Positions 8,918 to 12,875 of a DNA stretch of 40,075 nt are shown in pieces (position 1 is the stretch's first letter; each line of letters starts with the position of its first letter). A program made the translations under genes and the position numbers. The DNA lies in contig JAJCZG010000099.1 of the NCBI GenBank assembly GCA_029262475.1, positions 1 through 40,075 of the forward strand. The letters run 5' to 3'. The notes under the pieces are model-generated. The model saw only the letters and a list, made by a program, of their open reading frames with translations, did no database searches and was not told where the DNA came from. The stretch comes from Deltaproteobacteria bacterium (GTDB lineage: Bacteria; Desulfobacterota; GWC2-55-46; JAJCZF01).

Positions 8918-8946
8918 CCGTAACCTCCATTTGCTTCTTTTACAAA

Positions 8947-8983
8947 TACAAAAAGGCGCCTTTCGATAACGAAAGGCGCCTTT
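8947..8983 (-). terminator. Strong intrinsic terminator/attenuator in front of glnK
   Basis: On the minus strand a perfect 14-bp stem (AAAGGCGCCTTTCG, loop TTAT, CGAAAGGCGCCTTT) is followed by TTGTATTTG. Each arm contains the 12-nt palindrome AAAGGCGCCTTT, so the DNA also carries two identical palindromes centred 20 bp apart. It sits inside the operon, between amtB and glnK, which suits conditional attenuation. Its first arm overlaps the second hairpin of the candidate ANTAR element. Confidence 0.85.
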
Positions 8984-9027
8984 GCCGTTTATCCACTTAC
9001 TCTGTGCGGGCACTCCGTTGTGCCCGC
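8972..9027 (-). ncRNA. Candidate ANTAR target RNA (dual hexaloop) between amtB and glnK
   Basis: Hairpin 1 (9027-9006): arms GCGGGCAC and GTGCCCGC, 8 bp, hexaloop AACGGA. Hairpin 2 (8989-8972): core GGC/GCC with hexaloop AAAGGC, extended past one C-T mismatch by two A-T pairs. Both loops have A at position 1 and G at position 4, the published ANTAR recognition feature. Hairpin 2 uses the first arm of the terminator, so the two structures exclude each other. The sequence facts are direct; the regulatory role is inference. Confidence 0.6.
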
Positions 9028-9051
9028 TCTATTCTGTTATAGTATTAAAAT

Positions 9052-10428
9052 TTAGAAGAGGTTATATCCGTTCTCCCCGTGCTGCGATAGGTCGAGGCCC
9101 ATGCGCTCCTCTTCTTCGGTTACCCTGAGGCCTACTACTAAGTTAACGAATTTAAGTATTAAATATGTTCCTACTCCGGAGAGAAGTACCGTAACCACAA
9201 CCGCTACGAACTGCTTAAAGAGCTGTCCCGGGTTACCGAAGAGGACTCCGGTCACCCCTCCCATGGACGAGAAGACGCCTACCGCAAGGCTTCCCCAAAT
9301 ACCGGAAATGCCGTGGATGCCGAATACGTCGAGCGAGTCGTCGTACCTTAACCTGGGCTTAAGTATAGTGACGGCGAAGTAACAGAGCGAAGCACCGATG
9401 ATGCCTATAATAAGCGCGCTTCCAACACCTACAAAGCCCGCGGCAGGGGTGATTGAACCGAGCCCTGCTACTGTGCCTGAAACCGCGCCAAGGAGCGTGG
9501 GCTTGCCACGGTGCTTCCACTCTATAAAGACCCAGGTAAGGGTTCCTACGGCGGCAGCGGTGTTGGTCGTCATTAGAGCCATCCCTGCCTGACCGTTCGC
9601 GCCGAGCGCGCTCCCTGCGTTAAACCCGAACCAGCCGAACCACAGGAGCCCCATGCCGATGACCGTAAGCCCGAGGTTATGAGGAGGCATGGCTTCCTTC
9701 TGGAAGCCTTGTCTGTTGCCGATTACCAGGGAGGCGACTATGGCGGATACTCCACAGCTTATGTGGACGACTATGCCCCCGGCAAAGTCCATCGCCCCGA
9801 GCTTGCCGAGCCACCCTCCGCCCCATACCCAGTGGCACAGCGGGTCGTAGACGAATGTCGCCCAGAGGAGCGAGAATATGATTACGGCCGAAAATTTGAT
9901 CCTCTCAGCCACGGCCCCGGTAATAAGTGCAACGGTGATGACGGCGAACATCCCCTGGAACATGGCGAATACCACGTGAGGTATCGTCCCGTTAGGCTCG
10001 ACGCCGACATTCACGAATCCGAGGTACTGAAGTCCGCCCACGACACCGGAGAGATCACTGCCAAATGAGAGGGAATAACCCCATACGACCCACTGAATTC
10101 CAATCAGGCAGAGTATGAAGTAGCTCTGCATTATAGTTCCGAGTACGTTCTTCTTCCGGGCCATACCGGCATAGAAGAAGGCGAGCCCCGGAGTCATGAG
10201 CATAACGAGGGCGGTTGAAACAAGTACCCAGGCGGTGTCTCCGCTGTCTATGGCAGGGGACCCGGCTGCACTGGCAATCACCGGCACGGCAAGTAAGAAG
10301 GCCGAAACGGCAAGTATCATGAGTGCTTTAACATGCCCTTGGTTTCTTCCCGAAGATGGCCTCCCGGATAAAGCGTGTAGCAAGGCAGCACCTGACCCTC
10401 TTAACCTCGTCTCTGCTCTTAACTCCAT
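9052..10428 (-). CDS. amtB: Ammonium transporter (Amt/MEP/Rh family), 458 aa as read from the upstream start
   Basis: A second full Amt protein with DSGDTAWVLVS, FYAGMARKKNV, CHWVWGGGWLG, GGIVVHISCGVSAIVAS, FNAGSALGANGQ and DVFGIHGISGIWG, ending in the conserved tail RVTEEEERMGLDLSQHGENGYNLF. The start is uncertain. The ATG at 10428 has a good ribosome site (AAGGGAG) and gives an unusual 36-residue arginine-rich extension. The next ATG, at 10320, begins directly at the signal-sequence core MILAVSAFLLAVPVIASAAG but lacks a ribosome site. The 10428 ATG lies in the loop of a stable hairpin, so this segment may act as a leader RNA. Follows torF by 72 nt in the same operon. Confidence 0.93.
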   Translation of the reverse strand: MELRAETRLRGSGAALLHALSGRPSSGRNQGHVKALMILAVSAFLLAVPVIASAAGSPAIDSGDTAWVLVSTALVMLMTPGLAFFYAGMARKKNVLGTIMQSYFILCLIGIQWVVWGYSLSFGSDLSGVVGGLQYLGFVNVGVEPNGTIPHVVFAMFQGMFAVITVALITGAVAERIKFSAVIIFSLLWATFVYDPLCHWVWGGGWLGKLGAMDFAGGIVVHISCGVSAIVASLVIGNRQGFQKEAMPPHNLGLTVIGMGLLWFGWFGFNAGSALGANGQAGMALMTTNTAAAVGTLTWVFIEWKHRGKPTLLGAVSGTVAGLGSITPAAGFVGVGSALIIGIIGASLCYFAVTILKPRLRYDDSLDVFGIHGISGIWGSLAVGVFSSMGGVTGVLFGNPGQLFKQFVAVVVTVLLSGVGTYLILKFVNLVVGLRVTEEEERMGLDLSQHGENGYNLF

Positions 10429-10476
10429 TGTTAAAAACTCCCTTCATCTCAAACGATCCGGCTCCGCTGCCGGGAT
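10415..10476 (-). ncRNA. Candidate ANTAR target RNA (dual hexaloop) between torF and amtB
   Basis: Hairpin 1 (10476-10456): ATCCCGGC and GCCGGAT pair over 7 bp with one bulged C, hexaloop AGCGGA. After a 17-nt linker, hairpin 2 (10438-10415): arms GTTTTTAAC and GTTAAGAGC pair over 9 bp including two G-U pairs, hexaloop AATGGA. Both loops have A1 and G4. The ATG at 10428 lies inside the second loop and its Shine-Dalgarno is in the linker, so this copy could act on translation. I see no clear terminator next to it. Confidence 0.6.
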
Positions 10477-11469: not shown

Positions 11470-11551
11470 ACTATAACTTGTTGATTTTATTAGGATTTAT
11501 TTTTGTGGTATGGAGGTTAGTGCACTTTTATTAGGCACTCGTGCTTGGAAT

Positions 11552-12292
11552 TCAGTCACTGAAGATGCGTGTAAATACCTTACGTCCGTGCTCTATCAAG
11601 GAGTTTATGTGGAGGCGCGTATCAACGACGATCTTTTTAGGATTTATAACCCCGCGAAGCTCGGAGAGCTCTCCGGGGTTGGCCTCCAGGAAGCCTTTTA
11701 TCATCTCTTCGGTGACTTCGAAGTGGAACTGGAGTGCGTAGGCGTTTTCTCCTATGCGGAATGCCTGGTTTGGAAATAGCTTTGACGATGCGAGCAGAGT
11801 GGAGCCCGAAGGCAGGTCGAAGGTCTCGCCGTGCCACTGAAAGACCGATTGGGTTTTAGGGAGGGCGCTAAAAGATTTGTCCAGAACTCCTTCGCCGGTA
11901 AGTGTAAGGTCGTACCAGCCTATCTCCTTTGTTTCGCCATGGTAAACCCTTGCACCCGCCGCATGAGCCATGAGCTGGGCACCGAGGCAGATCCCCAGAA
12001 TTGGCGAACCCGCCTTTAAGGCGCTATCGATGAGCTTTAATTCCGAATTGATATACGGGTATTTATCCGCATCACTTACGCCCATTGGTCCGCCAAGTAT
12101 CACGAGCCCGTCAAAGCCTGTAATATCTTCCGGCGGTAGTTCTCCAAGGTAGAGGCGCGTATACTCTACGCCGTATCCGGAGTTAATCAGTACCGGGAGG
12201 ATAGTTCCAGGCCCCTCGCACCCGACATGCTGGATTATAAGTACCTTCTTAGCTATCTCACTTACCCCCGTCTCCCCCCTTGCCCATGACAA
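11552..12292 (-). CDS. Class I glutamine amidotransferase (GMP synthase-like GATase1), 246 aa
   Basis: A stand-alone GATase1 domain: KVLIIQHVGCEGPG, VILGGPMGVSD, the nucleophile cysteine in GICLGAQLMAH (C102), and the His/Glu pair in LQFHFEVT (H190, E192). Such enzymes release ammonia from glutamine or act on gamma-glutamyl compounds. The partner synthase is not visible. The frame opens at a TTG (12292) that overlaps the ANTAR gene by 35 nt; no ATG or GTG lies between it and the conserved KKVLII, so the exact start is unsettled. Coupling to a nitrogen-type antiterminator suggests a role in glutamine or gamma-glutamyl nitrogen salvage, which is inference. Confidence 0.82.
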   Translation of the reverse strand: MSWARGETGVSEIAKKVLIIQHVGCEGPGTILPVLINSGYGVEYTRLYLGELPPEDITGFDGLVILGGPMGVSDADKYPYINSELKLIDSALKAGSPILGICLGAQLMAHAAGARVYHGETKEIGWYDLTLTGEGVLDKSFSALPKTQSVFQWHGETFDLPSGSTLLASSKLFPNQAFRIGENAYALQFHFEVTEEMIKGFLEANPGELSELRGVINPKKIVVDTRLHINSLIEHGRKVFTRIFSD

Positions 12293-12845
12293 GAATTATC
12301 ATCTCGGCTATCTCTTTCATACTCTTTCTCTGCCCCATGCTGAGGCCCCTGATCTTTGTAAAAGCCTCATCCTCGGTAAGGCGCTCCTTCTCCATGAGTA
12401 TGCCCTTCGCCTTATCGATAAACTTTCTTGCGGCTACCTGCTCTTTAAGGCCGCTATTTTCTTCTCTCAGCAGTTGGAGCTCCGAGAATCTCGCCGAAGC
12501 GAGCTCCATAGCAACATGGAGCTCATTTAACTTAACCGGTTTTGGGACGAAGGACATGATGCCTGCACTAACGGCGCGTATGACTAATCCCTCGTCTTCG
12601 CTGGCGGTTACGAGCACTACAGGCGTTGGAGAAGTTCTGTTAATTTCCTTTGCCGCTTCTATGCCGTCCATCTCCGGGATCTCCACGTCCATGAGTACCA
12701 GCTCCGGCTTTACTTCGAGGCATGCCCTTACGGCTTCGGTGCCGGTGCTCGCCTCGGCCACTACGGAGTAGCCCATCTCCTCGACCAGGTTTCTAAGTAC
12801 GAACTTTTGTGACGGGTCGTCTTCTATTATGGCGATAGTCTTCAT
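12258..12845 (-). CDS. Response regulator with RNA-binding ANTAR output domain (NasT/AmiR-like), 195 aa
   Basis: Receiver domain (1-118) with acidic pocket EDD (8-10), phospho-acceptor D53 in LMDVEIPEMDG and the conserved lysine in FVPKPVKL. A short coiled-coil (SELQLLREENSGLKEQVAARK) leads into the ANTAR domain (about 138-187): FIDKAKGILMEKERLTEDEAFTKIR, then the KSMKEIAEMII helix. ANTAR proteins bind paired hexaloop hairpins in nascent RNA and prevent termination, often in nitrogen genes. No partner kinase is adjacent. There is no Shine-Dalgarno, and a sigma-54 match predicts a transcript starting about 4 nt before the ATG. Three dual-hexaloop candidates lie in the neighbouring ammonium operon, so this is their most likely reader. 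Confidence 0.92.
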   Translation of the reverse strand: MKTIAIIEDDPSQKFVLRNLVEEMGYSVVAEASTGTEAVRACLEVKPELVLMDVEIPEMDGIEAAKEINRTSPTPVVLVTASEDEGLVIRAVSAGIMSFVPKPVKLNELHVAMELASARFSELQLLREENSGLKEQVAARKFIDKAKGILMEKERLTEDEAFTKIRGLSMGQRKSMKEIAEMIILVMGKGGDGGK

Positions 12846-12859
12846 GGAATTTTAATAAG

Positions 12860-12875
12860 AGCAATTTAAGTGCCA
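12860..12875 (-). promoter_or_regulatory. Sigma-54 promoter match directly in front of the ANTAR gene
   Basis: Reading the minus strand from 12875, TGGCACTTAAATTGCT matches the consensus except for T instead of G at position 7, with correct 24/12 spacing. The predicted start (near 12849) is about 4 nt before the ATG at 12845, implying a nearly leaderless mRNA, which agrees with the absence of a ribosome site. Confidence 0.7.

Follow-up and report, generated by a model that had tools for sequence, protein, structure and literature searches.

A probable sigma-54 and ANTAR-RNA feed-forward circuit in the ammonium-uptake operon of an uncultured deltaproteobacterium

The DNA analysed here, referred to as the window, is a 40,075-nt stretch (positions 1 to 40,075 of contig JAJCZG010000099.1, forward strand) of the 2.4-Mb assembly GCA_029262475.1 of a Deltaproteobacteria bacterium (GTDB lineage Bacteria; Desulfobacterota; GWC2-55-46; JAJCZF01). 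It carries an ammonium-uptake operon, torF-amtB1-glnK-amtB2, on its minus strand, next to a gene for a response regulator with an ANTAR domain, and an NtrB/NtrC-like pair is encoded on the plus strand at 4038-6570 (Table 1). The gene order glgA-ANTAR-amidotransferase-porin-amtB-glnK-amtB is conserved in most of the loci fetched from the same taxonomic order, where ANTAR matches at E <= 1e-25 were obtained in 47 of 48 genomes. The gaps ahead of torF, amtB1 and glnK each hold a pair of hairpins, P1 and P2, on the transcribed strand; we call these pairs E1, E2 and E3. Taken together, the features described below make it likely that the operon serves in nitrogen starvation and is governed by a feed-forward circuit in which sigma-54 promoters are combined with RNA elements presumably bound by the ANTAR protein.

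Table 1. Features of the ammonium-uptake locus in the window; hairpin loops are in square brackets.
Feature	Position	Strand	Basis or remark
NtrB-like histidine kinase	4038-5141	+	NR(II) model 4.9e-53, under curated cut-off; top match AtoS
NtrC-like sigma-54 activator	5125-6570	+	TIGR01818 2.9e-152, under curated cut-off
amtB2, ammonium transporter	7244-8533	-	NCBIfam amt 1.6e-143
glnK, P-II protein	8579-8917	-	Pfam P-II 1.5e-33
Intrinsic terminator, 14-bp stem AAAGGCGCCUUUCG..CGAAAGGCGCCUUU then UUGUAUUU	8952-8983	-	z -6.4
E3 P2 hairpin GGC[AAAGGC]GCC	8975-8986	-	mutually exclusive with terminator
E3 P1 hairpin GCGGGCAC[AACGGA]GUGCCCGC	9006-9027	-	within R1 match 8973-9025
amtB1, ammonium transporter	9052-10428	-	NCBIfam amt 8.8e-136
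E2 P2 hairpin GUUUUUAAC[AAUGGA]GUUAAGAGC	10415-10438	-	position homologous to relatives' A1/G4 hairpin adjacent to the Shine-Dalgarno sequence
E2 P1 hairpin CCGGC[AGCGGA]GCCGG	10458-10473	-	sequence, fold, census
torF, TorF-family putative porin	10501-11268	-	NCBIfam TIGR02001 2.2e-14
E1 P2 hairpin AGGC[AACGAC]GCCU	11391-11404	-	second-best R1 match in window, partial
E1 P1 hairpin GAGAU[AAUGCU]AUCUC	11416-11431	-	sequence; rare by shuffles, census
Sigma-54 promoter of torF-amtB-glnK-amtB unit, TGGCACGCGAGTTGCT	11454-11469	-	perfect match
Class-I glutamine amidotransferase, overlapping ANTAR gene	11552-12292	-	Pfam GATase 2.5e-20
ANTAR response regulator, likely RNA-binding protein	12258-12845	-	Pfam Response_reg 1.8e-27, ANTAR 1.8e-19
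Sigma-54 promoter of ANTAR gene, TGGCACTTAAATTGCT	12860-12875	-	perfect match

A first-pass annotation of this DNA had listed six hexaloop hairpins, with A at loop position 1 and G at position 4 (A1/G4), and all six were recovered with the loops it gave; the linkers between P1 and P2, put there at 11-19 nt, are 12 nt in E1, 19 nt in E2 and 19 nt in E3 with the stems used here. Such pairs are rare. Dinucleotide shuffles, 2000 each, scored for the observed dual-hairpin strength, reached it in none of 2000 for the E1 leader, for E2 and for E3, and in 2 of 2000 when the entire 283-nt E1 gap was used, so that the chance origin against which the annotation had proposed this check finds no support there. 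A census that took in both window strands (80 kb) returned four A1/G4 pairs at the E3 threshold (minimum strength 6, sum 14), namely E1, E2, E3 and one antisense within glgA; at the stricter E1 threshold only E1 and E2 were left, and the other 15 loop classes gave 0-3 pairs each per strand. An Rfam scan brought no ANTAR family over threshold, and its weak matches to L20_leader and STnc320 were set aside as terminator-like hairpins. A strong hairpin at 39700-39802 of the window, which triggers weak Rfam hits, has U-runs on either strand and is probably a bidirectional terminator.

E3, ahead of glnK, is followed by an intrinsic terminator that overlaps P2, itself only three contiguous base pairs long. 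The predicted folds have the nascent RNA in the P1 and P2 form until the 3' arm of the terminator emerges; from then on the terminator is favoured by about 14 kcal/mol, and there is therefore a clear task for an RNA-binding antiterminator. A covariance model, R1, built from the elements of 29 relatives with the window left out, finds E3 at 46.9 bits in the window (E 6e-10) and as the sole significant match in the entire genome (E 3.6e-8). E3 thus combines dual A1/G4 hexaloops with an exclusive terminator over P2 and with compensatory stem changes in relatives, and its predicted role as a full ANTAR-type attenuator is strongly supported.

In the relatives the same gaps hold P1, followed by P2 in the form AAAGGC[AAAGGC]GCCTTT and by a terminator that has its 5' arm inside P2. 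Their P1 hairpins differ widely in sequence, for example GGTTAC[AACGGC]GTAACC, GGCAC[AGGGCT]GTGCC and AGGATAC[AAAGGC]GTATCCT, and their P1-P2 linkers span 4-36 nt. Across the 29 elements, four of the six P1 pairs changed on both sides, and the P1 and P2 stems together hold 32 both-side-change cells, as opposed to 10.0 in shuffles. The comparison with relatives that the first-pass annotation had asked for has therefore come out in its favour, the stems being kept with compensatory changes and the loops keeping A1 and G4. R1 matches at E <= 0.01 occur in 37 of the 48 genomes of the order, nearly all the strong ones in the ammonium operon, and at E <= 0.001 in 43 of the 63 genomes of the class, where the location was nearly always the ammonium operon whenever the context was checked. 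Several loci (L038, L040, L141 and L143) have two to four attenuators in series. Weak matches outside the operon (L131, L133 and L134) were discarded as chance-like, lying inside or beside unrelated genes. A Desulfuromonadales contig, L054, has a related cluster (ntrB-like, glnK, amtB, torF, ANTAR) in which an attenuator is matched at L054:5167-5213 (24.8 bits), immediately ahead of glnK.

Terminators that create polarity are common within operons, and the one at E3 is strong by itself. The hairpins might accordingly be terminators or processing sites of an ordinary kind, adjusting expression along the operon without any connection with the ANTAR protein. However, among hexaloop hairpins overlapping terminators at all loci, in a count that covered every loop class and did not presuppose A1/G4, 56 were A1/G4 and 17 belonged to the other 15 classes combined. 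P1, moreover, covaries upstream of the terminators, and the operon adjoins an ANTAR gene across the class, all of which leaves this explanation very improbable.

E1 lies in the torF leader, downstream of the sigma-54 promoter and at the place occupied by the first attenuator in relatives. R1 recovers its P2 half only, with a score of 12.1 bits and an E-value of 0.14 in the window (8.1 in the genome). No U-tract intrinsic terminator is recognisable in the torF leader after E1, whose alternative pairings are long-range only and lack a U-tract, and a role as attenuator was for this reason rejected. Its position in relatives and its rarity nevertheless lend reasonable support to an ANTAR-type element, and we regard E1 as a probable, candidate ANTAR site.

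At E2, the AUG of amtB1 (10428-10426) occupies loop positions 2-4 of P2, such that G4 is the G of the start codon. In the predicted fold both hairpins are formed, the Shine-Dalgarno (SD) sequence is paired and the start codon sits within the P2 loop. No intrinsic terminator overlapping E2 was found and, given the lack of a U-tract terminator and the position of the loop over the amtB1 start codon, E2 was likewise rejected as an attenuator. The first-pass annotation had proposed three serial checkpoints, each blocking termination; this holds for E3, but not for E1, with no recognisable terminator, or for E2, which lies over the SD and start codon. What E2 does show is the hallmark of ribosome-site ANTAR RNAs, dual A1/G4 hexaloops that include the ribosome-binding site (RBS) or start codon.

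An element of this kind recurs before amtB1 in relatives. In the large family f6, an outer helix around a GGC[ANNGNN]GCC hairpin and a second hairpin form a three-way junction, after which comes GATC[AAAGGA]GATC, directly abutting the SD AGGAGG. A second model, R2, built from ten loci, finds more cases at the same position, including in other families (L017 and L140). Over 19 aligned sequences, A1 and G4 are present in every SD hairpin, and the junction hairpin has G4 in 19 and A1 in 17; the helices show 17 double-change cells versus 4.6 in shuffles, in an alignment fitted to the structure and hence favouring covariation. Families f2 and f4 keep A1/G4 in the SD hairpin on stems of GATC or others (GTAC/GTAC, TATC/GATA, GTTCC/GGAAT). 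Altogether, an A1/G4 hexaloop hairpin stands before or over the start of amtB1 at 16 of the 20 loci, compared with 0-4 for other loop classes; ten of the 20 are close f6 relatives and not independent, and six of the other ten, the window included, are positive. An ANTAR-type element at E2 is thus reasonably supported by its position in relatives and its rarity. Because its P2 loop holds the start codon and relatives carry a ribosome-site element there, E2 more likely controls translation of amtB1 than termination.

The direction of such control may be considered further. The site before amtB1 could be an activating switch, in which ANTAR binding folds the upstream structure and frees a sequestered SD, so that all elements of the operon would act in the same direction. 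That would be physiologically sensible, and it accords with the paired SD in the window's predicted fold and with the folds of some relatives (L034 and L036), in which the SD has the outer helix's 3' strand as an alternative pairing partner. On the other hand, the SD is unpaired in the predicted folds of several relatives (L029, L039 and L040), the window's P2 holds the start codon itself, and mycobacterial ribosome-site ANTAR RNAs repress translation, according to the work cited in the relevant passages of PMC8164766. We therefore consider an activating switch rather unlikely.

Some further observations were made around these elements. At the end of the torF leader (window 11279-11301, minus strand), the sequence GATC-AGAAATAAC-GATC-AGGAGG, with a loop of 9 nt, resembles the relatives' SD hairpin GATC[ANNGNN]GATC-AGGAGG and is possibly a decayed ribosome-site element; its R2 match is too weak for an element of the second kind to be claimed. 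In L130, a second porin-like gene outside the operon (L130:2450-3433, G024:C74) has an attenuator match of 35.3 bits upstream and a weak match of the second kind, 20.5 bits, just downstream. About 35 residues extend the N-terminus of AmtB1 ahead of a signal-like segment (window 10322-10428, minus strand), and AmtB extensions of a similar kind occur in L017 and L019, downstream of their SD hairpins. In L019, from the relative G003, the first amtB is present in fragments only (L019:5613-5968, minus strand) and the remaining operon is intact.

The presumed RNA-binding protein is encoded about 0.8 kb upstream of E1, closer than the roughly 1 kb of the first-pass annotation, which was right about its type: the receiver and ANTAR domains both exceed the Pfam cut-offs, and the phospho-acceptor Asp is present. 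We aligned it to EutV (6wsh) and compared the RNA-contact residues named in PMC8934654, the residue mapping being our own. Eight of the 11 are identical (Arg142, Lys143, Lys147, Lys149, Glu160, Arg168, Met172 and Arg175), and three are substituted, namely Tyr164, the Tyr that stacks on G4, by Phe, Asn173 by Gly and Arg177 by Ser. The amidotransferase and ANTAR genes are neighbours in nearly all syntenic loci, and the enzyme at 11552-12292 (minus strand) might supply a glutamine signal to the regulator.

Sigma-54 control, also anticipated by the first-pass annotation, is borne out by perfect sites before both the ANTAR gene and torF. A sigma-54 site lies in the 250 nt upstream of the ANTAR gene in 32 of 37 loci, nearly always about 28-60 nt upstream, and downstream of the amidotransferase gene in 29 of 40, for a background expectation of 0.02-0.03 (0.019 per 250 nt for the regions upstream of the ANTAR gene). 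Sigma-54 sites at both units would amount to a coherent feed-forward layout.

Several points weigh against a circuit of this extent. E1 lacks a terminator and its P1 is atypical, the closing pair being U-A as opposed to C-G in 28 of 29 relatives, and P1 closing pairs are reported to matter (Ramesh et al.). E2 is missed by R1 and also by R2, in whose search it does not match the relatives' three-way-junction element, and the window's family consists of one genome, so that the comparison at E2 includes no second family member. The elements aligned for R1 had been chosen by their hexaloops and stems; pairing percentages are inflated as a result, although the variety of pairs is less built in by such selection. 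Finally, the search for a cognate sensor, made for kinases of the HisKA_2 (EutW) type, found none in the window's genome. The genome's second ANTAR regulator (L024:6743-7345, G000:C119) is a less likely partner for the elements, as it sits near thiG and a BATS/radical-SAM gene.

These points raise the alternative that E3 alone is genuine, E1 and E2 being hairpin pairs that arose by chance or remnants of elements that this lineage has lost. Neither is recovered whole by the covariance models, and there are relatives in which one gap or both are devoid of a detectable element, such as L016, L019 and L020 between the amidotransferase gene and torF. Yet E1, E2 and E3 make up three of the only four such pairs in 80 kb, all on the sense strand and in the exact gaps where relatives have A1/G4 elements, and shuffles hardly ever reproduce them. 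We accordingly hold it unlikely that E3 is the only functional element.

In the circuit that we favour, transcription of the ANTAR regulator and of the torF-amtB1-glnK-amtB2 unit would in both cases depend on sigma-54, with the nearby NtrC-like protein as the probable activator. The A1/G4 hairpin pairs in the operon transcript would then be bound by the ANTAR protein, which by analogy with EutV probably acts as a phosphorylated dimer. At E3, where the structures are evident in the sequence, binding would stabilise P1 and P2, prevent the overlapping terminator and allow transcription into glnK-amtB2. At E2, it would clamp the hairpin with the start-codon loop beside the already paired SD, more likely controlling amtB1 translation, with an effect of either sign. 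E1 would be a probable ANTAR site in the torF leader with no U-tract terminator after it. The window would thus follow the arrangement of its order, in which a ribosome-site element stands between two attenuators; the output of E1 is doubtful. A stronger proposition is that one ANTAR regulator works on the same mRNA in two modes, antitermination at E3 and its homologues elsewhere in the operon and translation initiation at a distinct, conserved element before amtB1, and that such a mixed layout dates far back in the order and is set within a sigma-54 feed-forward loop; the arguments for and against that proposition seem to us evenly balanced.

If so, ANTAR control of ammonium uptake extends to a deep, uncultured lineage that offers many natural variants of the elements. 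It becomes possible to test in a single operon whether one transcript can be both antiterminated and translationally regulated by the same ANTAR protein. The locus also raises the question of why glnK and amtB should be subject to RNA checkpoints on top of sigma-54 control.

ANTAR antitermination on top of a sigma-54 activator, GnfM, was reportedly described for nitrogen control by GnfK/GnfR in Geobacter sulfurreducens (Ueki and Lovley, 2010), the targets there being said to be mainly nitrogen-fixation genes, unlike the ammonium-uptake operon here. The eut attenuators under EutV/EutW resemble the present system in their receiver-ANTAR regulator, in P1/P2 hairpins with A1/G4 hexaloops, in a P2 that overlaps an intrinsic terminator and in serial elements within an operon; they differ in that our locus has ammonium-uptake genes, sigma-54 promoters, one element on a start codon and no HisKA_2 kinase that could be found. 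Relatives' linkers vary here, whereas in eut a linker change impairs induction, as reported in the pertinent passages of PMC3369931 and PMC8934654. The same passages describe four ANTAR terminators in series in the Enterococcus faecalis eut operon, and those of PMC3369931 13 attenuators in six transcription units of Desulfotomaculum acetoxidans, so that the first-pass claim of an undescribed serial arrangement must be given up. Covariance searching also placed ANTAR motif matches upstream of P-II and ammonium-transporter genes (PMC3369931), and the nitrogen regulons of Pelobacter carbinolicus and D. acetoxidans share with ours both RNA motif and targets; they belong to other lineages, and a mixed operon of attenuators and ribosome-site elements is not described in the relevant passages there. 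Actinobacterial ribosome-site ANTAR RNAs have dual stem-loops over the RBS or start codon, and the passages of PMC8164766 devoted to them mention neither a three-way junction, as conserved in our relatives, nor attenuators in the same operon. Among openly licensed papers we found no account of both kinds of element in one conserved operon. Serial ANTAR attenuators within one operon, and P-II and ammonium-transporter targets, are already published; the mixing of transcriptional and translational ANTAR elements in one conserved operon may be new.

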